Positions 29,886-58,229 of a stretch of DNA of 64,000 nucleotides are shown one piece after another. The stretch covers positions 2,356,001 to 2,420,000 of the forward strand of contig NZ_CP027706.1 in assembly GCF_003850565.1 (NCBI RefSeq), read 5' to 3'. The notes under the pieces are model-generated. The model worked only from the letters and a program-made list of their open reading frames with translations, had not been told where the DNA came from and ran no database searches. This stretch comes from Pseudomonas sessilinigenes. Its GTDB lineage: Bacteria > Pseudomonadota > Gammaproteobacteria > Pseudomonadales > Pseudomonadaceae. Numbering within the stretch: position 1 is the first letter of the stretch; the number at the start of each line of letters is the position of its first letter. A program made the translations under genes and the position numbers.

Positions 29886-32090
29886 TCAGCTGGCCAGGCC
29901 AGCCATCCTGGCCCGTGCCGCGTGCAGCTTCTTGTAGCTGTCGATCAACCGCAGGTGCCGGTCCAGGCCCTCCAGTTGCATGCTGGTAGGCGTCAGGCCA
30001 TGGAAGCGCACGCGGCCCTGTACCGAACCGATCACCGCGTCCATCCGCTCGTTGCCGAACATGCGGCGCAAGTTGGCTTCGTAGTCCGCCAGCTCCAGCT
30101 CGTCGTCCAGTTGCACTTCCAGCACCGCGTTCATGGCCTGGTAGAACAGGCCGCGCTCGACGGTGTTGTCGTTGTACTGCAGGAACATCTCCACCAGTTC
30201 CTTGGCCGGGTCGAACTGGCCCAGGGCCACGTGGATCAGCAGCTTCAGCTCGAGGATGGTCAACTGGCCCCAGGCGGTGTTGTCGTCGAACTCGATGCCG
30301 ATCAGGGTGGTGATGTCGGTGTAGTCGTCCAGCTCGCTTTGCTCCAGGCGCTCCACCAGGTCGCGCAGGCCGTCTTCGTCCAGGCTGTGCAGGTTGAGGA
30401 TGTCTTCGCGGAAGAACAGCGCCTTGTTGGTGTTGTCCCAGATCAGGTCGTCCACCGGGTAGATTTCCGAGTAGTCCGGCACCAGGATCCGGCAGGCGGT
30501 GGCGCCCAGATGCTCATACACCGCCATGTAGCTTTCCTTGCCCAGGCCTTCGAGGATGCCGAACAGGGTCGCGGCTTCCTCGGCGTTGGAGTCGGCGCCC
30601 TGGCTGGAGAAGTCCCACTCGACGAACTCGAAGTCGGCCTTGGCGCTGAAGAAGCGCCACGAGACCACGCCGCTGGAGTCGATGAAGTGCTCGACGAAGT
30701 TGTTCGGCTCCATCAGCGCCTGGCTCTCGAAGGTCGGCTGCGGCAGGTCGTTCAGGCCCTCGAAGCTGCGGCCCTGGAGCAGTTCGGTGAGGCTGCGTTC
30801 CAGCGCCACTTCGAGGCTCGGGTGGGCGCCGAAGGAGGCGAACACACCACCGGTGCGCGGGTTCATCAGGGTCACGCACATCACCGGGAATTCACCGCCC
30901 AGGGAAGCGTCCTTGACCAACACCGGGAAGCCTTGCTCCTCCAGGCCCTGGATACCCGCCAGGATGCCCGGGTACTTGGCCAGCACTTCCTGGGGCACGT
31001 CCGGCAGGGCGAGTTCGCCTTCGAGGATCTCGCGCTTGACCGCCCGTTCGAAGATTTCCGACAGGCACTGCACCTGGGCCTCGGCCAGGGTGTTGCCGGC
31101 GCTCATGCCATTGGAGAGGTAGAGGTTCTCGATCAGGTTGGAGGGGAAGTACACCACTTCGCCATCGGACTGGCGCACGAAGGGCAGCGAGCAGATGCCG
31201 CGCTCGATGTTGCCGGAGTTGGTGTCGTACAGGTGCGAGCCGCGCAGCTCGCCGTCGGGGTTGTAGATCCCGAGGCAGTACTCGTCGAGGATTTCCTTGG
31301 GCAGGGCATCCTTGCGCCCTGGCTGGAACCAGCGCTCGTCGGGGTAGTGGACGAACTCGGCGTTGGCGATCTCCTGGCCCCAGAACTGGTCGTTGTAGAA
31401 GAAGTTGCAGTTCAGGCGCTCGATGAATTCGCCCAGGGCCGAGGCCAGGGCGCTTTCCTTGGTCGAGCCCTTGCCGTTGGTGAAGCACATCGGCGACTGC
31501 GCGTCGCGGATATGCAGCGACCAGACGTTGGGCACGATGTTGCGCCAGGAGGCGATCTCGATCTTCATCCCCAGGCCCGCGAGGATCGCCGACATGTTGG
31601 CGATGGTCTGCTCCAGCGGCAGGTCCTTGCCGGGGATGCGGGTGCTGGTGCCGGCATCCAGGCTCGGCATCAACAGGGCCTGGGCATCGGCGTCCAGGTT
31701 CTCCACTTCCTCGATCACGAACTCGGGGCCGGTCTGCACCACCTTCTTCACCGTGCAGCGATCGATGGAGCGCAGGATGCCCTGGCGATCCTTCTCGGAG
31801 ATGTCCGCCGGCAGCTCGACCTGGATCTTGAAGATCTGGTTGTAGCGGTTTTCCGGATCGACGATGTTGTTCTGCGACAGGCGGATGTTGTCGGTGGGGA
31901 TGTCGCGGGTCTGGCAGTACAGCTTCACGAAGTAGGCGGCGCACAGCGCCGAGGAAGCCAGGAAATAGTCGAACGGACCCGGTGCCGAACCGTCGCCCTT
32001 GTAGCGGATCGGCTGGTCGGCCACCACCGTGAAGTCATCGAACTTGGCTTCAAGTCGGAGGTTGTCGAGAAAGTTGACCTTGATTTCCAT
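29886..32090 (-). CDS. ycaO: OsmC-YcaO fusion protein
   Basis: The 734-residue protein starts with an OsmC-like domain (about 1-140), followed by a YcaO ATP-dependent domain with KGSTKESALASALGEFIER and SAGNTLAEAQVQCLSEIFER, the two acidic motifs that bind ATP-magnesium. A helical C-terminal tail follows. E. coli YcaO lacks this OsmC part and assists RimO-dependent thiomethylation of ribosomal protein S12. In RiPP pathways YcaO makes thiazolines, but no precursor peptide or partner enzymes are seen nearby, so a housekeeping role is more likely. It starts at ATG 32090. Confidence 0.9.
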   Translation of the reverse strand: MEIKVNFLDNLRLEAKFDDFTVVADQPIRYKGDGSAPGPFDYFLASSALCAAYFVKLYCQTRDIPTDNIRLSQNNIVDPENRYNQIFKIQVELPADISEKDRQGILRSIDRCTVKKVVQTGPEFVIEEVENLDADAQALLMPSLDAGTSTRIPGKDLPLEQTIANMSAILAGLGMKIEIASWRNIVPNVWSLHIRDAQSPMCFTNGKGSTKESALASALGEFIERLNCNFFYNDQFWGQEIANAEFVHYPDERWFQPGRKDALPKEILDEYCLGIYNPDGELRGSHLYDTNSGNIERGICSLPFVRQSDGEVVYFPSNLIENLYLSNGMSAGNTLAEAQVQCLSEIFERAVKREILEGELALPDVPQEVLAKYPGILAGIQGLEEQGFPVLVKDASLGGEFPVMCVTLMNPRTGGVFASFGAHPSLEVALERSLTELLQGRSFEGLNDLPQPTFESQALMEPNNFVEHFIDSSGVVSWRFFSAKADFEFVEWDFSSQGADSNAEEAATLFGILEGLGKESYMAVYEHLGATACRILVPDYSEIYPVDDLIWDNTNKALFFREDILNLHSLDEDGLRDLVERLEQSELDDYTDITTLIGIEFDDNTAWGQLTILELKLLIHVALGQFDPAKELVEMFLQYNDNTVERGLFYQAMNAVLEVQLDDELELADYEANLRRMFGNERMDAVIGSVQGRVRFHGLTPTSMQLEGLDRHLRLIDSYKKLHAARARMAGLAS

Positions 32091-35218: not shown

Positions 35219-36445
35219 TCAGCCCACCAGGGCTTTGCCGAAGATCTGCCGCGCGATGACCATGCGCTGGATCTCGTTGGTGCCTTCATAGATCTCGCTG
35301 ATCTTGTTGTCGCGATAGATCTCCTCGACCTTGTAGTGGCTGCCGTCCTGCGCCAGCTCGCGCAGGAAGCCGTAGCCACCGAAAATCTGCACGGCATCGC
35401 GAGCCATGTCGCCGGCCGCTTCGGTGGCATAGTACTTGGCCATGGCCGCTTCGGGCTCCGGAAACTCGTTGCCCAGGTCCATGCGCAGGGCCGCCTTGAT
35501 ATAGAGGTTGCGGGCGTTCTCGATGTGCGTCGCGCGCTCGGCCATGCGGAACTGCCAGTGCTGGAAGGCCCCCAGTTTCTTGCCGAATGCCTCGCGGCTG
35601 CGCAGGTGTCCGGTGGAGTGGTCGAATGCCGACTGGGCCATGCCCACGCCGGTAGCGGCGATGCCGATGCGGCCGTAGGTCAGGGTCGACAGGGCCACCC
35701 GCAGCCCCTGGTTGGGCTCGCCGATGCGCCGTTCCAGGGGCACTTCCACATCCTGCAAGTGCACGTCGGCCGTCAGTTGTCCACGATTGCCCATCTTGCG
35801 ATCGGGCTTGCCGATGCGTACGCCCGGTTGGTCGGTCTCCACCACCAGCTCCACCATGCCGTCCTCTTCGCTACGGCACAGCACCACGATGAAGTCGGCG
35901 ACCGGCGAGTTGGTGATGAAGCGCTTGTGTCCATTGACGATGTAGCGATCGCCCTCGAGCCGGGCGCTGGTGGCCACGGCCTTGGGTGACAGGTCGGTGC
36001 TGGCCAGGGGCTCGGTGGTGGCGAAGGCGCCGATCTTGTCGCCGTTGATCAAAGGGCGCAGATAGCGTTCGCGGATGAAGTCGCTGCCTCGCTCCAGGGT
36101 GCGTCCGGCGAGGATGCAATGCACGTCGAAGATCGCCGCGATCGAATTGCTGTGGTAGGCCAGCTCTTCGCAGGCCGTGGCCGTGGCCAGCACCCGGTGC
36201 TCCAGGCCAAGCCCGCCATCCTGGGTCAGGAAAGGGATGCGGAAGATGCCGTGGCGCGCCATGGCATCGAAGACGTCCCGGGGAAAGTTGGCCACGCTCT
36301 CGTCTCGGTGAGCGATTTCGTAGGCCCGTGGGGCGACGAATTCGTCGGCGAATGCCCGGACTTCCCGGCGGATCTCAAGCACTGCGGTGGAGGACATCAG
36401 GTCGTGGTAGAGCTCATCGGCCATGCGTTTGGGAAGGGTTGCCAT
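35219..36445 (-). CDS. Acyl-CoA dehydrogenase
   Basis: The 408-residue flavoenzyme has the dehydrogenase layout: helical start, beta domain with ATTEPLASTDLS, and helical end with GGYGFLREL and IYEGTNEIQR, whose glutamate (about residue 387) is the expected catalytic base. It oxidises an acyl-CoA to the enoyl-CoA and passes electrons to ETF. Start ATG 36445 has GAGG upstream; a longer open frame reading through 37159 is an artefact overlapping the next gene. It is the last gene of the block with DUF1329, DUF1302, RND and YCF48 genes. Confidence 0.93.
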   Translation of the reverse strand: MATLPKRMADELYHDLMSSTAVLEIRREVRAFADEFVAPRAYEIAHRDESVANFPRDVFDAMARHGIFRIPFLTQDGGLGLEHRVLATATACEELAYHSNSIAAIFDVHCILAGRTLERGSDFIRERYLRPLINGDKIGAFATTEPLASTDLSPKAVATSARLEGDRYIVNGHKRFITNSPVADFIVVLCRSEEDGMVELVVETDQPGVRIGKPDRKMGNRGQLTADVHLQDVEVPLERRIGEPNQGLRVALSTLTYGRIGIAATGVGMAQSAFDHSTGHLRSREAFGKKLGAFQHWQFRMAERATHIENARNLYIKAALRMDLGNEFPEPEAAMAKYYATEAAGDMARDAVQIFGGYGFLRELAQDGSHYKVEEIYRDNKISEIYEGTNEIQRMVIARQIFGKALVG

Positions 36446-36612
36446 TTTTACCTCTGTACCAACATTGTCGGGGTTGACTGTCTTGGCCTCCGCCGGCGCT
36501 GCCCCGGTTGGGGCCGCCCTGGGTGATGCCGCTTGCTGTGGGGGCCGTCCAGGGCTGTAGATCGCCTGGCCGGGACGCTCCCCAGGTCCTGTAAAAAACT
36601 GCCTTGGGGGGT

Positions 36613-37134
36613 TCAAGCCCCTGCGCCCTGGGACTCTGAGGGGGCCTGGGCGCCGAGGGTGACGCCGTTGTACTTGAGGAAGAACGCGTCGGCCCGCTGG
36701 GCGATGTCCGAGTAACGACCGGCGATCGCCAGTTGCATCATTTCCACCTGCAGTACCTCTTGCTCGACCATGTAGTCCAGGAATGCCCGGGCCTCGACAG
36801 GCCCGGCCTGGCGCAGTTTGCGCAGCCAGTCGACGTAATCGATGGTGCCCTTGTGGAAGACCCTGACCAGGGCTCCGAGCAGCACCTTGGGGGTCGATGA
36901 AATCAGCCAGGCCTTGAGCCGGGTCATGGCGGCGGGCGTGGCATCGAGCCCCCAGTGACGGGCCGCCGCCCCGTAGCGATCGGCGTTGAAGAGTTCCAGG
37001 TCCCAGTAGGTTTTCCAGAACACCTGGCTCTTGTCGCCTTCCAGGCGCTCGCACAGGCGCCGGACGGTGATCAGGGCGAAGGCGCGGTTGGCCAACTCCC
37101 GAGCGAAATCGTGAATGAATGCTTCGGATGCCAT
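36613..37134 (-). CDS. Unknown helical protein in the RND/DUF1302 block
   Basis: The 173-residue protein appears almost wholly alpha-helical, with EQEVLQVEMMQLAIAGR in the C-terminal third and a short disordered tail. No signal peptide or membrane segment is visible. I do not recognise the family. It lies between the acyl-CoA dehydrogenase and YCF48 genes on one strand, so it is probably part of the same transcription unit and may carry or tether the hydrophobic substrate; this is a guess. Confidence 0.7.
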   Translation of the reverse strand: MASEAFIHDFARELANRAFALITVRRLCERLEGDKSQVFWKTYWDLELFNADRYGAAARHWGLDATPAAMTRLKAWLISSTPKVLLGALVRVFHKGTIDYVDWLRKLRQAGPVEARAFLDYMVEQEVLQVEMMQLAIAGRYSDIAQRADAFFLKYNGVTLGAQAPSESQGAGA

Positions 37135-37174
37135 GGTGACTCTCCAGTTGGATGCTCAAGTAAAAGGGGCAGGG

Positions 37175-38110
37175 TTAATGGGTGAGCACGCCGGCCGGCC
37201 CGAACAGCAGCAACTGGCCGTTGGCACCAGGGGCCAGGGCCGAGAGGTTCAGGCGCTGTTCCTGGCGGGTGACGCGAAAGTGTTCGAGGTCCTGCTCGGC
37301 GACCGCGATCAGGCCGCCATTGCCCACCAGGGCCACGCGACCGTCGGCCAGTTGGGTGATCGCTGTGATCGACTCTTGGCTGGGGTTGTCCAGCGCGCGC
37401 CACTGCGTACCCGACGGGTCGCCGAGCAGCACCCGGCCGCTCATGCCTGCCAGCAATACCCGGCCATCGCGCAAGCCGAGCCCGCTCCAGAGCGAGCCGC
37501 TGGCACCGGTGTCCAGTGCCTGCCAGGTACTGCCATGGTCGCTGGAACGGTAGGCGTTGCCGGCTTCGGCGGCGATGAACAGGCCCGCCTGGCCGGAGGC
37601 GAAGATCTGGTTCAGGTGTCGGTCGTTGCCTTCCTCGCCGACTTGCAGGCGTTGCCAGCTCTGCCCGCCGTCCTGGGTCTGCGCGGCGTAGCCGTAGGCA
37701 CCGACGACGATGCCGTGCCGGGCATTCTCGAACCATACAGAGAGCAGCACCGGTTGTTGTTCCAGGTCGGGCAGGCGGGTCCAGGTCTCGCCGGCATCGT
37801 CGGTGTGCAGCAACAGTCCGGCGTGGCCCACCGCCCAGCCCTGGCGCGGGTCGATGAAGCTCAGGGCGGTGAGCAAGCCATCCACCGGCACGCTTCGCGC
37901 CTGGTGCCAGGCTTGGCCATCGTCGGAGAGGATCACCACGCCATGGTCGCCAACGGCCACCAGGCGTTGGCCGGCCTTGGCCACCGCCACCAGGGAGGCG
38001 TGCTGTGGATTGTCCAGGGGGCTGGCGGGCATCTGGGCCGCCCATGGCTGGTCGCCGAAGGCCAGGCCCAGGAGCAGCAGGGGCAGGCTCAGCAAGCGGA
38101 TTGCAGGCAT
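37175..38110 (-). CDS. YCF48/BNR beta-propeller protein, exported
   Basis: The 311-residue protein has a signal peptide ending near QPWAAQ and repeated propeller blades of the YCF48 type, such as LSFIDPRQGWAVGHAGLLLHTDDAGETWTR cut into repeats with GETW/GQSW/GSTW turns. The plant and cyanobacterial relative HCF136/YCF48 assists photosystem assembly; in proteobacteria its copies usually sit next to RND/MMPL genes, as here. It probably acts as an assembly or scaffold partner of the transporter. ATG 38110 has GAGGAG eight bases upstream. Confidence 0.88.
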   Translation of the reverse strand: MPAIRLLSLPLLLLGLAFGDQPWAAQMPASPLDNPQHASLVAVAKAGQRLVAVGDHGVVILSDDGQAWHQARSVPVDGLLTALSFIDPRQGWAVGHAGLLLHTDDAGETWTRLPDLEQQPVLLSVWFENARHGIVVGAYGYAAQTQDGGQSWQRLQVGEEGNDRHLNQIFASGQAGLFIAAEAGNAYRSSDHGSTWQALDTGASGSLWSGLGLRDGRVLLAGMSGRVLLGDPSGTQWRALDNPSQESITAITQLADGRVALVGNGGLIAVAEQDLEHFRVTRQEQRLNLSALAPGANGQLLLFGPAGVLTH

Positions 38111-38126
38111 CGGGGGTTCTCCTCTT

Positions 38127-40487
38127 TCAGTGCGCAATCAGGGGCGCACGGATCGGCCCCCGTCGTGGAACCAGGGTTTCCAGGACCACCGCCAATGCCG
38201 GTAGCAGGGTGATTGCCATGAGCATGTTGGCCATGAACATGAAGGTCAGCAGCAGGCCCATGTCGGCCTGGAACTTCAGGGCCGAGAACGACCAGGTGGC
38301 GACTCCCACGGACAGCGTCAGGGCCGTGAACACCGTGGCCACGCCCACTTCGCGCAGGGCGTGCTGGAACGCGCTGACGATGTCCCGGCCCTGGGCGAGA
38401 TGCATCTGCAGGCGGTTGTAGATGTAGAACGCGTAATCCACGCCGACGCCGACCGCCAGTACCATCACTGGCAGGGTGGCCACGGTCAGGCCGATATCCA
38501 GCGCCTTCATGAACCAGTAGCCGAGGAAGGTGGCCAGGGTCAGTGGCAGGCAGCAGGCCAGCATCGCCCGCCAATCGCGATAGACCAGGAACACCAGCAG
38601 CACGATGGTCAGGTAGACATAGAGCATCATCGGCAGCTCGGAAGACTCCACCACCTCGTTGGTGGCGGCCTGCACGCCAGCGTTGCCGCTGGCCAGGCGC
38701 ACGGTGACCCCGGCCATGGGGTACTGCTCGCGGTAGTCCTCTACGGCCCGCACCACCCGTTTGAGAGTACTGGCCTTGTGATCGGCCAGGTACAGGTTGA
38801 TTGGCAGCAGGGTGCAGTCGGCGTTGTACAGGCGCAGGGCCTCGGGCACCTGGCGCACGGCCTCGCCCAGCGACAGCTCGTCCGCGGGCAGCGCGGCCCA
38901 TTTGGGATTGCCTTCGTTGACGCCGGAGGCCGCGAGTTTGGTCATGCCTGGCAGCGATTGCGCCGAGAGCACCCCGGGTACGTTGCCCAGGTACCAGGTC
39001 AGGCGATCCACGTAGGTCATCGTCTCGTGCTGGTAGCAGCCACCCGCCGGGGTCTCCACGGCGACGGTGAACAGGTCCAGGCCGAGGGCGAAGTGCCCGA
39101 CCACGCTTTGCACGTCCAGGTTGTAGCGCGAGTCGGCGTGCAGCTCCGGGGCCCCCGGCAGCACATGGCCGATATGCCGGCCCTGGCTCTGCCAGACCGC
39201 CACGGCCAGGAGCACCAGGCACAGCAGGGTGGCGATGAACGCATTGCGAGGTTCAGCGATCCGCCCCAGTTTCACCATGGTGTCGTCGCGCCAGGCCCGC
39301 AGCTTTTCCAGGCGGGCCACATAGGCACGATCGAAGCTGAAGTAGCTGGCCAGCAGCGGCAGCATGATCAGGTTGGTGACGATCTTGTAGGCCACGCCTA
39401 CCGAGGCCGTGATGGCCAGCTCGCGGATCATCGGGATAGGCACCAGCACCAGGGTCGCGAAACCGACGAAGGCGGTGATCAGGGCCAGGGTGCCGGGAAT
39501 CATCAGGCCCCGGAAGCTGCTGCGCGCAGCGCCCATGCCAGTGGCCCCGGCGCAGATTTCCTTGGCGATGAAATTGACCTGCTGCACCCCATGGGAGACG
39601 CCGATGGCGAACACCAGGAACGGCACCAGGATCGCCAGTGGGTCGAGGCCGAAGCCCAGTAGCGTCAAGGTGCCGAACTGCCAGACCACCGACACCAGCG
39701 AGCACAGCAACGGCAGCAGGGTCAGCACCCAGGAGCGGGTGTACCAGTACACCGCCAGGGCGGTGAGGACGAAGGCCAGGCCGAAGAACTCCACCACGCT
39801 CTTGGCTCCGGCGCCGATATCGCCCATCTGCTTGGCAAAGCCGATGATCTGGATGTCGTAGTCGGCGTCGGCGTACTGGCTGCGCACCTGGTCTTCCAGG
39901 CGCTGGCTGAACTCCAGGTAGTTCAGTCTCGCGCCGGTTTGCGGGTCCGGGTCGGCCAGTTCGGCCACTACCATGGCCCCTGACTGATCGTTGGCCACCA
40001 GGCTGCCGATGAAACCGCCAATGATGGTGCGCTCGCGGATACCAGCGATCGCCTGTTCGTCCAGGGTGCCGACGGTGACATCGCCACCGACCACGTCCTC
40101 GGCCTTCATGCCTTGCTCGGTGATTTGTACCGCGCGGATGTTCGGGGTCCACAGCGAGGTCACGCTGCGTCGGTCGATCCCGGGCAGGAAGAACAGGGTC
40201 TGGGTCAAGTCGTACAGGCGGGTCAGCGCCTGCTTGTTCCAGATATCGCCGTGCCTGGCGTGCAGCACCACGATGACCCGGTTGGCGCCGAACAGCACAT
40301 CGCGGTACTGGTTGAAGGTCTTGATGAAGGCATGTTGTTGCGGCAACTGCTTGTCAAAGCCTGCCGACATCTCCAGGCGAGAAGCGAAAGAGCCCATGAC
40401 CAGGGTGATCACCGCCAGCACGGCGAGGGTAGCCAGGCGGTGGCGGAAGAAGAAACGCTCAAGTGTCGACACCAAAAAAGCCAGCAT
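38127..40487 (-). CDS. RND/MMPL-superfamily transporter
   Basis: The 786-residue inner-membrane protein has twelve helices in the RND arrangement: one helix, a large periplasmic loop, five helices, then the repeat. Landmarks are LPVMVLAVGVGVDYAFYIYN in the second half and IAILVPFLVFAIGVSHGVQQ in the first. It is the MMPL/HpnN-like single-protein type without MFP or OMF partners nearby. Relatives move lipids, hopanoids or hydrophobic acids. It starts at ATG 40487 and ends just before the YCF48 gene (16-base gap). With the DUF1302 barrel and the DUF1329 protein it could form a transenvelope path. Confidence 0.9.
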   Translation of the reverse strand: MLAFLVSTLERFFFRHRLATLAVLAVITLVMGSFASRLEMSAGFDKQLPQQHAFIKTFNQYRDVLFGANRVIVVLHARHGDIWNKQALTRLYDLTQTLFFLPGIDRRSVTSLWTPNIRAVQITEQGMKAEDVVGGDVTVGTLDEQAIAGIRERTIIGGFIGSLVANDQSGAMVVAELADPDPQTGARLNYLEFSQRLEDQVRSQYADADYDIQIIGFAKQMGDIGAGAKSVVEFFGLAFVLTALAVYWYTRSWVLTLLPLLCSLVSVVWQFGTLTLLGFGLDPLAILVPFLVFAIGVSHGVQQVNFIAKEICAGATGMGAARSSFRGLMIPGTLALITAFVGFATLVLVPIPMIRELAITASVGVAYKIVTNLIMLPLLASYFSFDRAYVARLEKLRAWRDDTMVKLGRIAEPRNAFIATLLCLVLLAVAVWQSQGRHIGHVLPGAPELHADSRYNLDVQSVVGHFALGLDLFTVAVETPAGGCYQHETMTYVDRLTWYLGNVPGVLSAQSLPGMTKLAASGVNEGNPKWAALPADELSLGEAVRQVPEALRLYNADCTLLPINLYLADHKASTLKRVVRAVEDYREQYPMAGVTVRLASGNAGVQAATNEVVESSELPMMLYVYLTIVLLVFLVYRDWRAMLACCLPLTLATFLGYWFMKALDIGLTVATLPVMVLAVGVGVDYAFYIYNRLQMHLAQGRDIVSAFQHALREVGVATVFTALTLSVGVATWSFSALKFQADMGLLLTFMFMANMLMAITLLPALAVVLETLVPRRGPIRAPLIAH

Positions 40488-40569
40488 GGAATGCCTCGAT
40501 ACAGCGCAGCCCGCCAGTGGCGACCGGTGCGGCAAGCCGCTCCCGGACCCTTGGCGAGCCGGGGCCGGG

Positions 40570-42417
40570 TCAGAACGAGTAGGAAATATTGCCGCTGAGG
40601 AAATCACGGTCGGCCATCAGGTTATTGGCGCCGCCGCCCCAGAACTGCACCCATTGCACGCCGCCTTTCCAACGGTCGCGGTAGTTGAACAGCAGTGCCG
40701 TGCTCAGCGACCTGCGCCCCTCGATGAAGGGCGAGGCGTTGGGGGTGGTGCCGTGGACGTCATGGCTGAAATCCAACTGTGGCGTGACGGTGATGCCGCT
40801 GCCGAACAGGTCCGGGTAGTTGATCCCGAACTCGGTCACGTAGCCCCAGGAGGTCTTGTCCGGTATCGAGTAGTCCGGCAGGGCGTAGGGAACCTTGCCG
40901 GAGGTATCCAGGCCCGGATAGTGAGTGACCACCGCTTCGGCCAGGATGAAGGCGTCGGATGCACCCAGCGTGGCGGGAATGAAGCCCAGGGGGTCGTTGC
41001 CCGAGAAGTTGTAGATGGCGTTGATGTCGGCCTGCCACTTGCGTTCGTTGACGAAGCCCTTGCTCACCCCGGTATCGAACACGCTGTACTTGTTGTACGC
41101 GCCGCTGAAGGCCTGGCCGAAGGGCACGGTGGGGTCGATGGCGACGCTGTCCTGAGGGCGGAACGACAGCTCGCCGGCCACGGCTACGGGGCCGGCCATG
41201 GTGCTCATCGAGATGCCGAACAGGTCTTTGTCCTGGCCGTAGTTGATGAAGTAGTTGTCCACCACCAGGTTGTCGGGGTTGTTGCGGGCGGTGTAGCCAA
41301 CGAATGGCAGCTTGTCGTGGTAGCGCTGGTAGAAGAAGCCGAACTCGGTGGCGATACTCTCTGCGGTCCAGCGCAGTGCCACGCCGTATTGGCCGCCATC
41401 GCCCGGCTTGCGCTCGCCGGCATAAGGCACCGCCAGGCCCGCTGCCACCAGTTGCGCGGTGCCCAGGCCGGTGTTCAGAGGATCGCCGCAGCGTCCCGTG
41501 GGCGTGCCAGCGCAGGCCCCGGGGCTCAACCCCTCGAGATAGTGGGTGGGGTAGTAGATCGCGCGGCGCCCTTCGCCCACCACGTCGGTGGTGGAGAAGT
41601 AGGTGCCGACCGGGTCCACGTCATAGGCATTCCACTTGAACTGATAGTAGGCCTCCAGGTTCAGCGTCTCGGTCAGGCCGATATTGAACGAGGCCATCGG
41701 TGCCGGAATGAACACTTCCTTGAGCTGGGTGCCGGGGGTGTGGAACTTGGGCAGGCTCAGGGCGTTGATCTGGTTGATGCCGCCGGACATGAAGATCTCC
41801 GAGCCCCAACTGATCACCTGGTTGCCGAGCTTGGCCTTGGCCGGCATGTCGGCGATGTCGAAGCTCTTGGCCAGCCACAGGTCCAGCAGGTCGAAGCGCT
41901 CGGTGGCATCGCGCTTGGCCGTGTGCTCCAGGTCGGTGCGCCGGGTATCGTCCATCTTGAAGTCCCGGGCCCAGGCCACGCGCCCGAGCGCGCTCCAGCC
42001 ATCGCCGAACTTCAGGCTCAGCTCATGGGTGCCCTTGACGACCTGGGAATATACATCGTGCTTGCGATAGTTCAGGTCGCCATCGTCGGAGTTGGAGAAG
42101 TTGATATCGGCATTGGCATAGCCGTTGCCGCGTCCGAGGTTGTAGTAGCGGCCCAGCTCGTTGTCGATGCCGTTGTTGCAACCACCGTTATCGCCGCCCA
42201 GCTGGCGGCATGCGGGGGATTGCAGGCGGCTGGCAAAACCATAGGAGAGCGTGGAGTCGAAGCTGCCTGACAGGCCGTCCGCGCTGCCGAAGAGGACGGC
42301 GTGGCTGGCCGGTATCCAGGCCAGGTTGGAAGCCACGGTCATGGTCAGGACCAGGGTCTTGCGCGAGCAGAGGCTTGGCTTGGGCACCGAGTCGCCGCCT
42401 TTTTTATACTTGTGCAT
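40570..42417 (-). CDS. DUF1302 outer-membrane barrel-like protein
   Basis: The 615-residue protein has a signal peptide (about 1-40, ending SHA) and a beta-rich mature part ending ISYSF, with the C-terminal aromatic residue typical of outer-membrane barrels. It matches the DUF1302 family, always next to DUF1329 in Pseudomonas. ATG 42417 is chosen. Exact substrate unknown, but related pairs occur in gene sets for long-chain, sterol-like or alkane-type compounds. It lies between the DUF1329 gene and the RND gene. Confidence 0.88.
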   Translation of the reverse strand: MHKYKKGGDSVPKPSLCSRKTLVLTMTVASNLAWIPASHAVLFGSADGLSGSFDSTLSYGFASRLQSPACRQLGGDNGGCNNGIDNELGRYYNLGRGNGYANADINFSNSDDGDLNYRKHDVYSQVVKGTHELSLKFGDGWSALGRVAWARDFKMDDTRRTDLEHTAKRDATERFDLLDLWLAKSFDIADMPAKAKLGNQVISWGSEIFMSGGINQINALSLPKFHTPGTQLKEVFIPAPMASFNIGLTETLNLEAYYQFKWNAYDVDPVGTYFSTTDVVGEGRRAIYYPTHYLEGLSPGACAGTPTGRCGDPLNTGLGTAQLVAAGLAVPYAGERKPGDGGQYGVALRWTAESIATEFGFFYQRYHDKLPFVGYTARNNPDNLVVDNYFINYGQDKDLFGISMSTMAGPVAVAGELSFRPQDSVAIDPTVPFGQAFSGAYNKYSVFDTGVSKGFVNERKWQADINAIYNFSGNDPLGFIPATLGASDAFILAEAVVTHYPGLDTSGKVPYALPDYSIPDKTSWGYVTEFGINYPDLFGSGITVTPQLDFSHDVHGTTPNASPFIEGRRSLSTALLFNYRDRWKGGVQWVQFWGGGANNLMADRDFLSGNISYSF

Positions 42418-42436
42418 GGCGTTTTCCCCGGGTCGA

Positions 42437-43798
42437 TCAACGTTCGCCGCGACGGCGCAGTTCGTTGGAGTTGAACATCTTGTCGTTGACCCGGCCTTCC
42501 TGGCCGGCGGTGAGATCCAGCACCTGGCCTTCCTGGGTGAAGCCATCGGCAATGTAGCGCCGGGCAATCAGGTCGTAGCTCAGGTATTCGAAACTGGTGC
42601 AGGCCTGGATTTCGGGAGCGGCCCACAGGCTGCCTTCCTGGACGCGCCAGAGGTTGCCCTTGGCGTCGTACATGTCGACGTGCAACAGGCTCCAGCTGTC
42701 TTCGTCGAAGAAGAACACGCGCTTGGCGAAGGAGTGGCGCTTGTCGGCCTTGACGGTGGCCTCGACCACCCAGACCCGGTGCTTCTCGTAGCGCTGCACA
42801 TCGCGGTTGAGGTAGTCCTGGCCGATCAGTTGCTCGTACTTGTTGGCCTTGTCGACCAGCTTGTAGGAGTTGTACGGCACGATCATTTCCTGCTTGCCCA
42901 GCAACTTGAAGTCGTAGCGATCCAGCGCTCCGGTGAACATGTTGATCTGGTCGACGAAGTACAGGTTGTCGGAGCCGGCGATCGGGTTGTCATAGGCAAA
43001 GGACGGTGCCTGGCGTACACGCCGCTGGCCGGGGAAATAGATCCATGAGCTCTGTACCTTGTCGAGGAAGGCATGCACCAGGTACATCTCCCCGGCCCTG
43101 GACGACGGCGATAGCACGTCATACAGCAGCTTGGCCTCGATGCCGTCGGTGTCGCCCGGTGCTTTCACCGCGGCATTGTTGTAGGGGTAGTACTCGTAGG
43201 CCCACTGCCGGACCTCGGAGAGGGCCGCATTCTTTTCGCGCAGCAGGAACGAGATCTGCGCTCGACGTCCCTTGGCCATGTAGCGCAGCTTGTAGTTCCA
43301 CATGGCTTCGATGCCGTTCTGCGGAATCGGGAACGGTACCGCTGCTCCCGCGGCCTGCTCCAGGCGCCAGCCATCGCTGCCAATGCGTGCCTGGCCGGCG
43401 AATGTGCGGGTGCGCTCGGCCACTTCGGCCGGGATCGGGCAACTGCGCCGGGTCGGATAGACGTCCAGGCGGTAGCCTGGGTAGGCCTTGATCAGGGCCG
43501 CTTGACCTGCGGGCAGCAGTTGCAGGTACTGGGCCAGGTTGCGCGAGTCGATGGAGTACAGCGGTTTGTCACTGGCGTAAGGATTGCCATGGCCGGCCGA
43601 CCAGCCGGTGGGAGCCTGGGTCAGGCCTCCGGTCCAGGCCGGGATGCTGCCGTCGGCATTGCCGGCTTTCTCGGCCCCGATGGGGGTCAGTCGATTGCCC
43701 AGCTGGCTCAGGTCGGCCGCGGGGGCAGCCTGTGCCTGGACAGTACCGAGCAGCGCCAACAGCGCGCCGCCCAACAGCGAAAGCGAAGGGTGTGTCAT
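42437..43798 (-). CDS. DUF1329 periplasmic protein
   Basis: The 453-residue protein has a clear signal peptide (about 1-25, ending QAQA) and a soluble beta-rich mature region. It matches DUF1329, whose members are related to the lipoprotein carriers LolA/LolB in fold, so it may shuttle a hydrophobic ligand across the periplasm. It is first in its unit and starts at ATG 43798 with AGGAG upstream. The 20-base gap to DUF1302 supports coupled expression. Confidence 0.88.
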   Translation of the reverse strand: MTHPSLSLLGGALLALLGTVQAQAAPAADLSQLGNRLTPIGAEKAGNADGSIPAWTGGLTQAPTGWSAGHGNPYASDKPLYSIDSRNLAQYLQLLPAGQAALIKAYPGYRLDVYPTRRSCPIPAEVAERTRTFAGQARIGSDGWRLEQAAGAAVPFPIPQNGIEAMWNYKLRYMAKGRRAQISFLLREKNAALSEVRQWAYEYYPYNNAAVKAPGDTDGIEAKLLYDVLSPSSRAGEMYLVHAFLDKVQSSWIYFPGQRRVRQAPSFAYDNPIAGSDNLYFVDQINMFTGALDRYDFKLLGKQEMIVPYNSYKLVDKANKYEQLIGQDYLNRDVQRYEKHRVWVVEATVKADKRHSFAKRVFFFDEDSWSLLHVDMYDAKGNLWRVQEGSLWAAPEIQACTSFEYLSYDLIARRYIADGFTQEGQVLDLTAGQEGRVNDKMFNSNELRRRGER

Positions 43799-44306
43799 GA
43801 ACTTCTCCTGGGGAGCTTTTTGTGTTTATCGGGAAGCAGTTCGAAGTGACTCGCAAGGGTAGGGGTGACGCTGTTCCGCATTGCACGGAAGTGGTTCGCC
43901 GGCAGGGCTGTGGTACGCACCGTACCCATGCCCCGGTCGTGTCGCGCAAGCCGCAGCGCGTTCCGGCAAATGGCTCGACGCCCCGCAGTAGAGTCTGCTC
44001 GCAGTCATCTACTCACCCTCTTTATTGGTTTTTTTGGTGGTGCGCATGCAGGCGGTCCGGGAGGCGATGGAGACTGGCTAGTGCGGCTCGCCTGCCAGGT
44101 CAAGTTATACAAAAGCGCTTGGGGCGGCTTGGCCGCAGAGGCCAGGGCAGTTGCCATCTGGTGCCAGCCTGGTTGTCGGTGCGCTAGGGGGGAGGGAACG
44201 TGGCGCAGGCGGTGTTCGATGTCGAGGTCGAGGTCGAGGTCGAGCCCAGGGATGCTCGCTGCGCCGGGATATCAATACGTGCTGGCAACCCATGGGGCGC
44301 TGGCGT
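43799..44306. other. 508-base gap upstream of the DUF1329 unit
   Basis: No gene is convincing here. A 60-codon open frame on the minus strand (43826-44008) has a ribosome-like GAGGGTGAG before its ATG but looks non-coding. The gap should contain the DUF1329-unit promoter and the target of the AraC-type regulator. A T-rich tract, TTTATTGGTTTTTTTGG, lies at about 44022-44038. Confidence 0.4.
44221..44244. repeat. (GTCGAG)4 short tandem repeat
   Basis: Four exact copies of GTCGAG stand head to tail, followed by CCC. It lies between the AraC-type gene and the DUF1329 gene, in non-coding sequence. Copy number could vary by slippage and change spacing of a nearby site, but no promoter was identified to support this. 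Confidence 0.7.
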
Positions 44307-45275
44307 TCAAGGTGCCGGCAGGCTGGCGCCATCGCGCCACTGGGCTGGGGTCTGGCCCACCTGGGTCTTGAACAGGCGGATGAAGAAACTTACGTTTTCG
44401 TAGCCGACTTCATAGGCGATGGCCTTGACCGGCAGGCCGCTGGACAGCAGCAGTTTCTTGGCCTTGTCGACCCGCACCCTCTGCACGTAGAGGTTGGGCG
44501 GCAAGTGGGTCGCCAACTGGAAGCGGCGCTTGAGGGTCCGCTCGCTCAGGCCGGCTTCACGAGCCAGGCTCGCGATGCTGATGGCTTGCCGGTGATGGTT
44601 CTCGATCCAGTCCTGGACCTTGAGTACCACTGGGTCGCGATGATTGCGATGCCCCGGCAGGATCGGGCTCAGGCGCTCGGGCATCGAGACCAGCAGGTGG
44701 GTTGCGCACAGTTGAGCGAAGCGGTCGCCCTGGTCCTGGGCGAGCATTTCCAGCAAGGCGTCGAAGCCGCCCCCCAGCGAGCCGCTGCTCCAGATGCCCT
44801 GCGCCTGGGTGAAGGATGAATGGGCCACGAAGGTGCAGTCCGGATAGCGTTTGTTCAGGAGCCGGGTATAGGCCCAGTGGGTGGCCAGGAGCATGTCCCG
44901 GCCCAGCCCGGCCGCCGCCACATGACAGGCGCCGGTGGTCATCGCCAGGACCCGCGCGCCACGGGCCTTGCACTGGGCCAGCCAGGCCAGGGCCCGGGCA
45001 TCCGGAGCAAAGCCGGCGGCCAGGCGCGGGCCTTCGATGGGCGGAATCACGATCAGCTGGCAGTCGTCGGCCGCCTCCAGCGCGGCATCCGGGTGAATGG
45101 CATGGCCACTGGCAGCCTGGACCGGGCCGCCATCGATCGACAGCACCCTGGCCCGATAACCCTGGGGGACCCCGAGGTGCTGTTCCAGCAGTGCGACGAT
45201 GCGAAAGAAGTCCGTGGCCGAGAACACGCCCATGGCCCAGCAGCCGTCATAAGCCAGAATCGCTACCTCGTTCAT
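44307..45275 (-). CDS. GlxA-like AraC-family regulator
   Basis: The 322-residue protein has an N-terminal DJ-1/PfpI-like domain with the cysteine in TTGACHVAAAG (about residue 110) and a C-terminal double helix-turn-helix (LAREAGLSERTLKRRF, then VKAIAYEVGYENVSFFIRLF). Start ATG 45275 has a G-rich upstream site. The type controls catabolism of amines or quaternary ammonium compounds in other Pseudomonas, but here it lies just upstream of the RND/DUF1302/DUF1329 unit on the same strand and is a reasonable activator of it. Confidence 0.9.
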   Translation of the reverse strand: MNEVAILAYDGCWAMGVFSATDFFRIVALLEQHLGVPQGYRARVLSIDGGPVQAASGHAIHPDAALEAADDCQLIVIPPIEGPRLAAGFAPDARALAWLAQCKARGARVLAMTTGACHVAAAGLGRDMLLATHWAYTRLLNKRYPDCTFVAHSSFTQAQGIWSSGSLGGGFDALLEMLAQDQGDRFAQLCATHLLVSMPERLSPILPGHRNHRDPVVLKVQDWIENHHRQAISIASLAREAGLSERTLKRRFQLATHLPPNLYVQRVRVDKAKKLLLSSGLPVKAIAYEVGYENVSFFIRLFKTQVGQTPAQWRDGASLPAP

Positions 45276-46618: not shown

Positions 46619-46811
46619 GGCCGGGCCTGGGTCAAGGCGCTGTTGCTGATCGACCGCCCGCTGGCCCATGGGCCGTTAATCGCCATGTGCCAGTATCTTG
46701 TGGCGGGTGAAAACCTGCTTATATGATTCGCGCGCCCAATCACCCGGAGTCGACAGGTTCTGCGCCACCGGCCTCGGGCTCTTTCACTGGTTCTACAGGG
46801 ATGTTCTAGCG

Positions 46812-47666
46812 ATGAAGATCGACAACAAGGCAGGTTTGCCCAAGCCCGGCCGCCTGGGGCGGGCGTTGGCCGCTCTGACGTTGGCCACGGCGGCGTTCGC
46901 GGCGCCATTGGCCGTCTATGCCAAGGACCCTTTGATCCCGCCTGGCGCGGTGCTGGCGGTGATCAACAACGTCCAGATCGATGACCAGGCCGAAACCTTC
47001 GAACTGGAAGATGGCGTGGTGTCCAACTTCTGGTATGGCCGCGAGATCGACCTGGGCGGCAAGCACTATTACGCGACGTTCTCCTGGTTCACTCGCGACC
47101 GCGCGGCCCGTGAAGGTGAGGACTTCATCGCCCCGGACGTCAAGGTCCGGCTGGCGGACGCGACCTTCGAACTGGCTCGCCCGGGTCAGAAGCAGCCTTA
47201 CGATATTCGCAGCATCGAGCGCAAGATCGGCTTCTTCGGCGCCCGCGAGCAGCCCGAGGAAGTGGACACCAGCCGCCAGGCCCTGGAGTACCGCACCAAC
47301 GATGGCCGCCTGGTGCTGGCGGTGCCCACGGCCACCTTCGACAGCGGCTATGGCATCAGCGGTTATGCCGTGTTCGTGTTCAACCCGAACAAGACCCCGG
47401 AGGAGGACGGCTGGGTCTGGAGCTACCTGGGCCAGGTCTTCAGCGGCGAGGACAACTCGGCGGCCTGCGACGACGGCACGGTGATCCCCTGCATCGCCAA
47501 CCAGGGCGAGCTGAATTTCGTGGCGGCCCAAGGGCCGATGCCGCGCTTGCTGGTCAAGTTCAGCGGCACCACCTCTGCGGGCGACACCCAGACCCGCAAG
47601 ATGGGGGATGCCGATGACGTCAGCTACGTCTTCGATGGCAAGCAGGTGCAGTATGTCCGCCAGTGA
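46812..47666 (+). CDS. Exported protein of unknown function
   Basis: The 284-residue protein has a signal peptide, probably cut after VYA (about residue 37). The mature part is beta-rich and acidic, with two cysteines (ACDDG and IPCIAN) that might bond. No family is recognised. It stands between the hydrolase and the barstar-like gene, both on the plus strand. Confidence 0.7.
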   Translation: MKIDNKAGLPKPGRLGRALAALTLATAAFAAPLAVYAKDPLIPPGAVLAVINNVQIDDQAETFELEDGVVSNFWYGREIDLGGKHYYATFSWFTRDRAAREGEDFIAPDVKVRLADATFELARPGQKQPYDIRSIERKIGFFGAREQPEEVDTSRQALEYRTNDGRLVLAVPTATFDSGYGISGYAVFVFNPNKTPEEDGWVWSYLGQVFSGEDNSAACDDGTVIPCIANQGELNFVAAQGPMPRLLVKFSGTTSAGDTQTRKMGDADDVSYVFDGKQVQYVRQ

Positions 47667-54197: not shown

Positions 54198-56630
54198 CTA
54201 GAAGTCCCAGCGGGTGCTGAGCATGAAGTTACGCGGTTCACCGTAGGCGGCCGAGTTATAGAAACCGACGTTGGTGTAGTAGGACTTGTCGAAGATATTG
54301 TTGACGTTCAGGGTCGCCGAGAGGCTGTCGGTGATCTGGTAGCGGGTCATCAGGTCCACCAGCCAGTAGGATGACTGGGTGATGTCCTGGTTGCGGTCCA
54401 GCGGCTTGTTGTAGATCGAGTACCAGCCTTTGCTCTGCCAGCGCAGGCCGCCGCCGACGGTCAACTTGTCCAGGTCGCCCTTGAGCTTGTAGGTGGTGTA
54501 CAGGTTGACCTGGTCCTCGGGTTCGAAGGTGGAGAGCTTGTCGCCTTTGTCATCGCGCACCACCTTGTGGGTGTAGCCGGCCTGGACCTGCCAGCCCGGG
54601 CTCAACTCACCGGAAATCTCCGCCTCGTAGCCCTTGGTAACCGCCTTGGACCCCTTGTAGGCATAGTTGCTCGGGGTGGGGGTCAGGTTGTTGTAGGCGT
54701 CGTCGGAGATCGGCCGGTTGTTCTCGCGTATCTCGAAGTAGGCCAGGCTGCTGTTCAACCGGCCTTCGAAGAATTCTCCCTTCAGGCCCAGCTCGTAGTT
54801 CTGGCCTTCATCCGGCTCCAAAAGCTTCTGGTCCCTGTCCTTGTTGAAGCTTTCCTGGGGCATGAAGATATCGGTGTAGCTGGCGTATGCCGAGAAGTTC
54901 TCGTTGAGGTCATAGATGATCCCGGCATAGGGGACGAAGCGTCCGCTTTCCCGGTACGACGGGGTCAGGCCGGTCTGGTGATAGTTGACCACGCGCCCGC
55001 CGAGGATGACGTTCAGGTCGTCCAACAGGTTCAGGCGGGTGGTCAGGTAGGCGCCAGTCTGGCGCGTGGTGTCATCGGTAATCTGCGCCGGAGCCTGCCA
55101 GATGGGGCGGGACAGGTGGCCCTTCCAGTTGTAGAAATCCACCTTGTTGCCCTGGGGCCAGACCGGCGCCCAATAACCTTTGCCTTGCCAGCGTGACGTG
55201 CTGATCGAACCGCCCAGCACCAGCTCATGGTCGCGCCCGAACAGGCTGAACGGCCCGCTGGCATAGAGATCGGCGGAGGTGCTCTTGGTTTCGCCGGTGT
55301 ACTTCTGGCCGTTGATCTCCGCGCTGCCATCGGCCTGGGGCTGGTCGAACTGGATCGAGCCCAGCTCGGCATGGTAGCTGTTGATCTTGTGGTCCAGCTG
55401 CAGCTTGGTGACCCAGCCATCGCCCAGGTCGTGCTCGAGCATGGCGAAGGCGGTGCGTGTGTACTGCTCCCAAGCGCTCCAGGTCGTACCGTTGTTGTAG
55501 GAGCGCGACATCTTGTTGATGCTGCCGTTGGAATTGACCAGCGGGAAGGTGCCGGACCAACTGGAGCCCTTGGGAATGTTGTCCTGCATGTCGGCGCCCA
55601 CGGTCAGCATCGTATCCGGGGACAGGTCGAATTCGAGGATGCCGTAGTAGGTTCCGGTCTTGCGCGAGTAGTGGTCCAAAAACGACTGCTTGTCCTGGTA
55701 GGCGGCCACGGCACGACCACGGACATTACCGCTGTCGGTCAACGGGCCGCTGACATCCACCTCGCTGCGATAGTTGTCCCAGGAGCCTGCGCCCAGGGTG
55801 GCGTGCCCCTTGAACTCGGCGGTGGGTTTCTTGCGTACCAAGTTGATGGTGGCGCCGAGGGAGCCGGCGCCGGTCAGCAGGCCGGTGGCGCCCTTGAGCA
55901 CTTCGACCCGGTCGTAGATCGCCATGTCGCTCAGGGTGTTGCCCGCCGAGTAGGCGACATTGCGTGAGGTGGAGGGAATGCCGTCGTACTGGAAGTTGTT
56001 GATCGAGAAACCGCGGGCGTAGTAGTTGGTCCGGTCGGTGTCGTAGGCCGATACGGTGATGCCCGGGGTGTGGCGCATCACGTCGTCGACGTTGTTGAGG
56101 TTGAAGTCTTCCATGTGCTGGCGGGTGATGACGCTCACCGATTGCGGGGTCTGGCGGGGGCTCAACACCAGCCGGGTGGCGGTGGCTAGGGTGCCTGGGG
56201 TATAGGAGCCGGAGCCCTCGGTCACGGTGCCCAGTTGGTTGCTGATGATCTGGGTCGCACCCAGTTCCACGCTCTTCTCCACCGCGGGCAGGCGGGTCAG
56301 CAGGACGGCATTGAGGCCATTGCGCTCGAAGCCCAGGCCGGTGCCCTCCAGCACCTTGGCCAGTGCCTGTTCGGCGCTCATCCTGCCGCTGACTCCAGGG
56401 GACTGGATGCCTTGGGCCATCGGCGAGGAATAGGCAATCTGCAACCCGCTCTGGGTGCTCAGTTGGTCCAGGGCCTCGGCCAGGGGTTGCCTGGCGATGG
56501 AGAAACTATGCAGGTTCGACTCTTGCTTGCTGAGGGCGCTGGCGGGTTCGACAGCTGCTGCGTGCCCGCAGGCCAGGCAGATGGCTAGCGCCAGGATGCT
56601 GCGGGCGGGGATGTGGGATGAGAAGTGCAT
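54198..56630 (-). CDS. TonB-dependent siderophore receptor with STN domain (FpvA/FoxA-like)
   Basis: The 810-residue outer-membrane protein has a signal peptide ending AAA, an STN domain (about 40-110: SIARQPLAEALDQLSTQSGLQI), a plug with TPGITVSAYDTDR and YARGFSINNFQYDG, and a barrel ending STRWDF. The plug motif is that of the siderophore receptors FpvA/FoxA/FecA-like. Its STN domain and the upstream FecR/sigma pair make a complete surface-signalling set. ATG 56630 is chosen. Confidence 0.9.
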   Translation of the reverse strand: MHFSSHIPARSILALAICLACGHAAAVEPASALSKQESNLHSFSIARQPLAEALDQLSTQSGLQIAYSSPMAQGIQSPGVSGRMSAEQALAKVLEGTGLGFERNGLNAVLLTRLPAVEKSVELGATQIISNQLGTVTEGSGSYTPGTLATATRLVLSPRQTPQSVSVITRQHMEDFNLNNVDDVMRHTPGITVSAYDTDRTNYYARGFSINNFQYDGIPSTSRNVAYSAGNTLSDMAIYDRVEVLKGATGLLTGAGSLGATINLVRKKPTAEFKGHATLGAGSWDNYRSEVDVSGPLTDSGNVRGRAVAAYQDKQSFLDHYSRKTGTYYGILEFDLSPDTMLTVGADMQDNIPKGSSWSGTFPLVNSNGSINKMSRSYNNGTTWSAWEQYTRTAFAMLEHDLGDGWVTKLQLDHKINSYHAELGSIQFDQPQADGSAEINGQKYTGETKSTSADLYASGPFSLFGRDHELVLGGSISTSRWQGKGYWAPVWPQGNKVDFYNWKGHLSRPIWQAPAQITDDTTRQTGAYLTTRLNLLDDLNVILGGRVVNYHQTGLTPSYRESGRFVPYAGIIYDLNENFSAYASYTDIFMPQESFNKDRDQKLLEPDEGQNYELGLKGEFFEGRLNSSLAYFEIRENNRPISDDAYNNLTPTPSNYAYKGSKAVTKGYEAEISGELSPGWQVQAGYTHKVVRDDKGDKLSTFEPEDQVNLYTTYKLKGDLDKLTVGGGLRWQSKGWYSIYNKPLDRNQDITQSSYWLVDLMTRYQITDSLSATLNVNNIFDKSYYTNVGFYNSAAYGEPRNFMLSTRWDF

Positions 56631-56731
56631 GGAAGTCCCGTACGAAATAGGAATGATTTGCAAAAGCAAACACCCTGACGGGTTGTCCCGGACAAAGCCG
56701 TAAAACTTTTTTCTCGCCTGCCTTGGGTATG

Positions 56732-57703: not shown

Positions 57704-58229
57704 CGGGGTCGTGCCGGTCGGTGGCCTTGAGGCAGGCGTTGAGTGCATGGCGCAGGTCCTTTTCCACCGTGCTCAGGGAGACCTGCAGGCGCTGGGCGAT
57801 CTCGCCTTGGGAAAGGCCGTGCAGTTTATGCAAAACCAGGATTTGTTGCTGGCGCTTAGGCAGGGTGGCCAGTACCTGCTGCAGCAATTGCAGCTGCTGC
57901 TGGCCCTGTACGTGGCTATCGGGACCCGGCGCGGCGGTTGGAACCTGGTTGATCTGGTGATCGTCGCCCAGCTGGTATTCGAAACGGCGCTTGCTGCGTT
58001 GGCTACGCAGATGATCGAAGGCCAGGTACTGGGCCGTCTGGTAGAGAAACGGTTGCAGATGCTCGATGGAGCGAGTGTTCAAGGCCTTGGCCACCCGCAA
58101 GTAGGCTTCCTGGGCCAGGTCTTCGGCCAGGCTGGAACAGCCGACCACGCGCGACAGCATGCGGATCAATGCACCGCGCTGGGCGACGAACAGCGTGCTG
58201 AGTCGTTGTTGGTTGTCTCCGGTCACCAT
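57696..58229 (-). CDS. FecI-family ECF sigma factor
   Basis: The 177-residue sigma factor has region 2 (AEDLAQEAYLRVAKAL) and region 4 (LHGLSQGEIAQRLQVSLSTVEKDLRHAL). A Fur box lies 56 bases upstream of the ATG. It should direct transcription of the downstream receptor in response to the FecR signal. Confidence 0.93.
   Translation of the reverse strand: MVTGDNQQRLSTLFVAQRGALIRMLSRVVGCSSLAEDLAQEAYLRVAKALNTRSIEHLQPFLYQTAQYLAFDHLRSQRSKRRFEYQLGDDHQINQVPTAAPGPDSHVQGQQQLQLLQQVLATLPKRQQQILVLHKLHGLSQGEIAQRLQVSLSTVEKDLRHALNACLKATDRHDPDD

Follow-up and report, generated by a model that had tools for sequence, protein, structure and literature searches.

Gene neighborhood and a shared operator tie a DUF1329-DUF1302-RND-YCF48 cassette of Pseudomonas to amine-oxidizing enzymes

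What might a set of envelope proteins carry, and which pathway would it serve? The question is raised by seven genes in a 64,000-nucleotide stretch of the Pseudomonas sessilinigenes genome, hereafter the window (G000:C1:2356001-2420000, in a single-contig genome of 6.90 Mb). Four of them, encoding a DUF1329 protein, a DUF1302 protein, an RND transporter, and a YCF48-type β-propeller, form a cassette whose gene order is conserved in other genomes. Computation also finds linkage to and co-occurrence with amine-oxidizing enzymes, an operator shared with an amine dehydrogenase operon, and a LolA-like fold for the DUF1329 protein. With slightly better than even confidence, we read the cassette as the transport arm of primary-amine breakdown, serving hydrophobic amines or their aldehydes, and as an amine branch of the AmeABCD kind of system. 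The genes are as follows.

44307..45275, minus strand: GATase1/DJ-1-AraC regulator (PF12833, PF01965)
42437..43798, minus strand: DUF1329 protein (PF07044, E 7.6e-130; LolA_like PF17131, E 2.9e-13)
40570..42417, minus strand: DUF1302 protein (PF06980, E 7.6e-143)
38127..40487, minus strand: RND/MMPL transporter, HAE3-like (PF03176)
37175..38110, minus strand: YCF48-type β-propeller, PSII_BNR (PF14870)
36613..37134, minus strand: 173-aa helical protein, without a Pfam or NCBIfam match at E 0.01
35219..36445, minus strand: acyl-CoA dehydrogenase, 408 aa (PF00441, PF02770, PF02771; region scanned, 35219-36367)

An earlier note on this DNA had placed seven genes of these families on a single strand, and the Pfam matches bear this out. 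From the sequence, the intergenic gaps in the DUF1329-DUF1302-RND-YCF48 core are 19, 82, and 16 bp. Next, 40 bp past YCF48, comes the 173-aa gene, and the acyl-CoA dehydrogenase lies 167 bp further on; its open reading frame (ORF) extends to 37159 if an upstream TTG is taken as the start, and the end at 36445 is used here. About 0.5 kb separates the end of the upstream GATase1-AraC regulator gene from DUF1329.

A search with the RND protein alone across GTDB species genomes yielded 44 loci in Pseudomonas, Zoogloea, Azoarcus, Aromatoleum, and relatives, the best RND relatives being those of Pseudomonas. Gene order elsewhere was a check that the earlier note had asked for. The order DUF1329-DUF1302-RND-YCF48, on the same strand, is kept at 42 of the 44 loci; the two outside this count, L036 and L043, end at contig ends. 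Because the same-strand arrangement recurs at loci found by RND alone, the gene order is conserved far beyond chance. A transporter matching at E ≤ 1e-250 occurs in only 3 of the 369 genomes of a class sample, the window's own included, and the cassette is therefore uncommon. A TerB-family gene (PF05099) stands just after YCF48 in L028:13368-13847 and at 20 other loci; it mostly precedes an aldehyde dehydrogenase gene, and these loci are of the Zoogloea/Azoarcus type.

All-against-all comparison of the loci brought out their recurrent neighbors. An amine-oxidizing enzyme lies within 10 kb at 41 of 44 loci, distances being measured between starts of matches. At 28 loci this is a tryptophan tryptophylquinone (TTQ) amine dehydrogenase, recognized by Pfam from its heavy chain (PF06433), MauE (PF07291), and light chain (PF02975); one of the 28 also has a flavin amine oxidase. 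The MauD-like neighbor scores 184.7 bits against TIGR02661 (cut-off 188.6), and matches to the methylamine dehydrogenase equivalogs TIGR02658 and TIGR02659 fall below their cut-offs, as expected for the aromatic-amine type. Ten further loci have a quinohemoprotein amine dehydrogenase at this distance, with α and β subunits and a radical S-adenosylmethionine (SAM) maturase (TIGR03908, TIGR03907, TIGR03906). The last three have a flavin amine oxidase alone (PF01593), with L044 and L045 belonging to one genome; its start appears by eye to be of the twin-arginine translocation (TAT) type. The three loci without an amine enzyme are all cut short: L011 covers 16.6 kb (less than 1 kb of it upstream of DUF1329), L036 3.9 kb, and L043 12.0 kb. 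In L063 and L064, close kin of L011, TTQ genes lie about 10-12 kb from the RND gene. Moreover, 41 of 42 genomes behind the loci carry PF02975 or PF09098 somewhere, and G753 (L043) carries neither; in this count L027 is not included and L045 is in the same genome as L044. The earlier note had found that the cluster would fit a complete path for a lipid, terpene, or long-chain acid. The transport machine stands, and the amine enzymes at 41 of 44 loci speak against that guess at its substrate.

Both the TTQ and the quinohemoprotein amine dehydrogenase families work in the periplasm. Periplasmic action of the quinohemoprotein enzyme is described in PMC7876137; here and below, cited papers stand for the portions of them that were at hand.

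The association extends to genome samples of the genus Pseudomonas (348 genomes) and the Zoogloea family (249 genomes), which overlap the genomes behind the 44 loci (e.g. G042 = L008, G728 = L017), so that the counts are not independent. In the genus sample, an RND at ≥83% identity occurs in 15 genomes, PF02975 in 55, and both in 13. PF02975 is thus present in 13 of 15 genomes with the RND ortholog versus 42 of 333 others (Fisher 8.5e-10; kinship ignored). Among the 13, RND and PF02975 lie on one contig within 12 kb in 11, on different contigs in G251, and 0.85 Mb apart in G000. When PF02975 matches are divided at 180 bits, a line drawn after the scores had been seen, 13 of 14 genomes in the high class (≥180 bits) also have the cassette, as against 0 of 41 with the low class only. 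This second, lower-scoring light-chain type, alone in 41 of the 348 genomes, never occurs with the cassette.

Similarly, in the Zoogloea family every genome with an RND at ≥76% identity has an amine dehydrogenase within 7 kb (20/20; 12 TTQ, 8 quinohemoprotein). At 61-75% identity, linkage within 15 kb holds for 10 of 13, and in the remaining three genomes the enzyme is on another contig. Overall, an amine dehydrogenase is found in 33 of 33 genomes with an RND at ≥61%, versus 28 of 216 others. Counted in reverse, an RND lies within 15 kb of 25 of the 28 copies of the TTQ enzyme and, for the quinohemoprotein enzyme, of 15 of the 42. The linkage count for this family leaves out 8 rows below 30 bits from 50 match rows.

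A maximum likelihood tree of 54 RND proteins, drawn from the loci of this analysis only, places the window's RND within a TTQ-linked Pseudomonas set (support 98/87). On this tree the label "quinohemoprotein" needs two changes and the label "flavin amine oxidase" two; the transporter was therefore retained while the enzyme changed. Outside the TTQ-linked clade are two paralogs from the window's own genome and four Pseudomonas cassettes with RND identities of 57-58%. Residues S298, H299, D684, and Y685 are invariant in 54 of 54 aligned relatives.

A further tie is a 44-bp direct-repeat operator, made of two half-sites 22 bp apart, which is found in relatives ahead of the cassette and ahead of the enzyme block alike. 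In the window the following elements lie upstream of the cassette.

44125..44168, minus strand: candidate 44-bp direct-repeat operator (weight matrix, 41.1 bits)
44104..44109, minus strand: -10-like hexamer (by eye; spacing to the operator about as at most other sites)

The weight matrix was trained on 14 sites, all from other genomes. The window's best site exceeds by far the runner-up in the 64 kb (10.7 bits), and L050:5989, upstream of the TTQ operon of the same genome, scores 43.5 bits with a runner-up there of 8.1. As a null, 60 random 64-kb sequences reach 18.6 bits at most. The cassette promoter thus carries, as a candidate site, the operator of the TTQ enzyme operon. The operator word came out of a comparison between L050 and a set containing the window region, so its discovery was not blind, and the null of the first scan was 8 shuffles. 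Of 15 Pseudomonas loci, 12 have a site above 18.6 bits, and 10 of these have two or more; training sites came from 9 of the 15, and not from L005 (two sites) or, in other genomes, from L069 and L062. By eye, the sequences downstream of 23 sites show a -10-like hexamer at near-fixed spacing past the operator. L015, L045, and L065 also carry the operator ahead of their flavin amine oxidase (33.5 bits); of these three, L015 and L065 are apparently the same contig.

The TTQ cluster of this genome (L050) lies at about 3.24 Mb of G000:C1, 0.85 Mb from the cassette; tblastn at 1e-6 found no amine dehydrogenase genes within the window. L050:3228-10136 encodes a DAO-type FAD oxidase, an AraC protein with an arabinose-binding domain, heavy chain, MauE, MauD, light chain, and cytochromes, and from its sequence the cluster looks complete. 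Heavy chain, MauE, MauD, and light chain are those of TTQ aromatic/aralkylamine dehydrogenase clusters (PDB 2h3x, 2agl), which in this genome lie outside the window. The heavy chain scores 168.6 bits to aromatic amine dehydrogenase versus 101.5 to methylamine dehydrogenase, and the light chain aligns at both tryptophans that we take to form TTQ. A scan of the genome for quinohemoprotein amine dehydrogenase (PF08992) gave no match; the controls gave none either, so absence is not established. In both L006 and L009 the cassette is followed by the TTQ block, then the 173-aa gene, and finally an acyl-CoA dehydrogenase with 90% and 88% identity, respectively, to that of the window; in L006 an opposite-strand regulator lies in between. 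The window's cluster is of the L006/L009 type minus its enzyme block.

Which regulator would act on the operator? The gene position of the arabinose-binding-domain AraC protein suggests it as the factor. The GATase1-AraC protein had been included in the seven-gene system proposed earlier; this neighbor is not conserved near other cassettes. As regulator of the cluster it was dropped, its matches at the loci of other genomes being only 28-29% identical.

The components themselves are consistent with movement of a hydrophobic compound through the envelope. The DUF1329 protein is probably an exported LolA-like carrier: the signal peptide noticed earlier is visible by eye, the LolA/LolB-like relation is matched by PF17131, and an AlphaFold2 model (pLDDT, the predicted local distance difference test, 85.8) has a LolA-type fold. 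The DUF1302 protein is a probable outer-membrane β-barrel, by analogy with the barrels described in PMC6394551 and PMC10866462. The YCF48-type propeller is probably exported, as had been claimed, with a signal peptide seen by eye. The RND protein matches the HAE3 model TIGR00921 at E 2.9e-46 and 157.9 bits, below the cut-off of 351.9. With 44.2 bits against the HpnN model TIGR03480 (cut-off 751.85), it falls outside HpnN, the hopanoid transporter of the same broad RND branch (HAE3), and differs from it in having three partner proteins. No membrane fusion protein (MFP) or outer membrane factor (OMF) is encoded among the seven genes by Pfam, in keeping with the earlier note, and the linked MFP and OMF of an HAE1 tripartite pump are accordingly not found among them.

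The 173-aa protein is predicted to fold as a helical bundle of ferritin-like type and shows no evident signal peptide; it occurs at 9 of the 44 loci and has no sequence relative in the PDB with E below 0.16. The canonical di-iron ligands of ferritin-like proteins are ExxH pairs. In the 173-aa protein, E47/N50 and E126/Q129 show the ExxH spacing, and a 25-row alignment contains no invariant or near-invariant His.

A working model would run as follows. The DUF1302 barrel, the LolA-like DUF1329 carrier, the YCF48 propeller, and the HAE3-like RND protein would together carry a hydrophobic amine, or the aldehyde formed from it, through the envelope layers or out of them. In the periplasm an amine dehydrogenase, in this genome the TTQ enzyme whose genes lie 0.85 Mb off, would convert the amine to aldehyde and ammonia and pass electrons to cytochrome c. 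The acid could be activated to a CoA ester and then become the substrate of the cluster's acyl-CoA dehydrogenase. A single AraC-type regulator would control both operons through the common 44-bp operator. We lean slightly toward delivery of the amine inward. More tentatively, and at somewhat less than even confidence, the cassette could be a conveyor devoted to periplasmic amine oxidation, carrying hydrophobic primary amines or their aldehydes, that was kept as its enzymes were swapped (TTQ, cysteine tryptophylquinone (CTQ), perhaps flavin), the operator maintaining the tie after the genes had separated.

Several observations weigh against assigning the cassette to amine breakdown. Linkage itself is not proof of transport, and many known substrates of aromatic amine dehydrogenase are fairly water-soluble. 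In the window's own genome the enzyme is not adjacent to the cassette. The Fisher values take related genomes as independent and hence are too strong. The flavin amine oxidase class was named only after the neighbors had been seen, and PF01593 is a broad family. G129 and G228, 2 of the 15 cassette genomes in the genus sample, lack PF02975; flavin amine oxidases adjoin their cassettes. In the Zoogloea family, RND proteins at 50-60% identity are linked to an amine dehydrogenase in only 10 of 26 cases, 12 having the enzyme elsewhere in the genome and 4 lacking it. No operator site above 18.6 bits was found in the Pseudomonas loci L011, L016, and L044 (3 of 15), in L063, L064, and L070, or in the 29 non-Pseudomonas loci. 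L062 (G293) has the same TTQ cluster as the window's genome and an operator site of 39.0 bits, yet its genome is without a near-identical RND. The four cassettes at 57-58% (L066, L067, L068, L071) have no TTQ or quinohemoprotein genes in 18-19 kb. Three of these have DAO-type FAD oxidase matches at 32-35%; the cassette of L068 has a PF01593 flavin oxidase nearby as well as a DAO-type one, a DAO-type oxidase also occurs in L071, and in L067 there are two PhyH dioxygenases. These neighbors indicate that the cassette type as a whole is not tied to amine dehydrogenases; the four perhaps form a branch with a different substrate. Wider kin of the cassette are tied to benzene and, via a DUF1329 gene, to phenanthrene (PMC13101534).

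The best surviving alternative, although we judge it unlikely, is an outward pump protecting against toxic hydrophobic aldehydes or amines that arise or are encountered in the periplasm, comparable to what was proposed for AmeABCD with monoterpenes. When AmeABCD is deleted, tolerance of monoterpenes falls and the net influx of Nile Red rises (PMC6394551), and the kin of the RND protein with solved structures, found by sequence search, are mostly named efflux pumps or exporters. Furthermore, the unrelated enzymes that pair with the cassette have an aldehyde product in common. Amine delivery fits this linkage equally well, however, and the Pseudomonas putida counterparts are required for Tween 20 metabolism (PMC10866462), for which lost uptake seems a simpler cause than toxicity.

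That the cassette serves lipids, terpenes, hydrocarbons, or long-chain acids in general, the amine enzymes being neighbors by accident, appears quite improbable. Known relatives have been linked to monoterpenes, to Tween 20, and perhaps to benzene and phenanthrene (PMC6394551, PMC10866462, PMC13101534), and the four 57-58% cassettes do without amine dehydrogenases. Yet linkage at 41 of 44 loci and in 20 of 20 genomes, enzyme swaps on the tree, and a shared operator are hard to call incidental. Close linkage to the enzyme genes would also suit a cassette that carries no small molecule and instead aids the making or placement of the amine dehydrogenase (cofactor formation or export), but this is highly improbable. 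Cofactor and maturation are not the same across the enzymes (TTQ with MauD/MauE, the quinohemoprotein with radical SAM QhpD, and flavin in the third kind), so that a single maturation role is unlikely to cover all of them, and related cassettes serve terpenes and Tween 20 (PMC6394551, PMC10866462).

How new, then, is a transport arm for amine breakdown? The cassette itself is not new; the combination was described earlier as known in outline, and AmeABCD, the P. putida set, and the "Nanopod" cluster match its parts. In AmeABCD of Castellaniella defragrans (PMC6394551), a DUF1302 outer-membrane protein, a DUF1329 protein of the LolA superfamily, a periplasmic COG4447 protein, and an HAE3 RND protein are combined, in a composition and organization conserved within its lineage. 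The same combination of DUF1302, DUF1329, YCF48/COG4447-type, and RND proteins is present here by Pfam and at 42 of 44 loci. The window's cassette is set apart from AmeABCD by its partner, operator, and gene order. According to its letters and accessions, the order of AmeABCD is DUF1302-DUF1329-COG4447-RND rather than DUF1329-DUF1302-RND-YCF48, and AmeABCD is linked to monoterpene genes, whereas kin of the window's cassette are linked to amine-oxidizing enzymes and share the operator. The likeness is one of components, the RND tree having been built without AmeD.

In P. putida, PP_0765, PP_0766, PP_2018, and PP_2019 encode DUF1302, DUF1329, a periplasmic protein, and an efflux-type transporter; all are required on Tween 20, and co-folding suggested a new transport system (PMC10866462). 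By locus numbers these form two separate gene pairs (PP_0765/PP_0766 and PP_2018/PP_2019), with no amine link described in the portions at hand, unlike the single cassette of the window. The window's genome has two further RND relatives of 41% identity, at 2.98 and 5.22 Mb, and three additional DUF1329 genes. Its loci L051, L052, L053, and L055 comprise DUF1302-DUF1329 pairs, a DUF1302-DUF1329-YCF48-RND set, and a YCF48-RND pair; these paralogs may be the counterparts of the P. putida Tween 20 genes.

The "Nanopod" cluster of a benzene-degrading Desulfobacterota strain encodes porin-like, DUF1329, YCF48-related, and MMPL proteins, suggested as a transmembrane complex for benzene, and differs in its proposed substrate and in extra genes that include a universal stress protein (PMC13101534). 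The same paper cites a Delftia DUF1329 mutant impaired on phenanthrene. Of the quinohemoprotein enzyme's qhp operon (PMC7876137), the α, β, and radical SAM genes lie near the cassette at 10 of 44 loci; the operon as named there, qhpABCDEFGR, is without RND, DUF1302, or DUF1329 genes. PMC3644233 gives quinohemoprotein amine dehydrogenase genes and RND counts apart and unlinked, and PMC7012976 places a DUF1302-DUF1329 pair inside a Zoogloea phenol-hydroxylase cluster with no amine enzyme named, in the portions of both at hand. No title or abstract opening among those listed, in a search that covered few subscription papers, names an amine dehydrogenase tied to DUF1302, DUF1329, or such an RND protein.

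Earlier studies of such systems diverge among terpene efflux or tolerance, growth on Tween 20, and a guessed benzene transport. DUF1302 and DUF1329 are still named as families of unknown function, and the strict tie to amine enzymes, together with the operator, points to a substrate class and an inducer. If the conveyor reading is true, both families gain a defined substrate class. To our knowledge, no account of TTQ amine dehydrogenase clusters includes a transport cassette, and no other transport system is known for these amine-oxidizing enzymes; our results suggest that periplasmic amine oxidation may have an overlooked transport side.

Other features of the window lie outside the cluster. 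An exported-looking 322-aa ORF at 46698-47666 has no Pfam or NCBIfam match at E 0.01. At 29886-32090, a 734-aa protein appears by eye to join an OsmC-like start to a YcaO-like body. Two sigma factor/FecR/TonB-receptor sets, at 12488-16889 and 54198-58229, were recognized by eye, with secretin-like N-termini, and ABC and permease genes at 18736-24240 suggest nearby iron or heme uptake.

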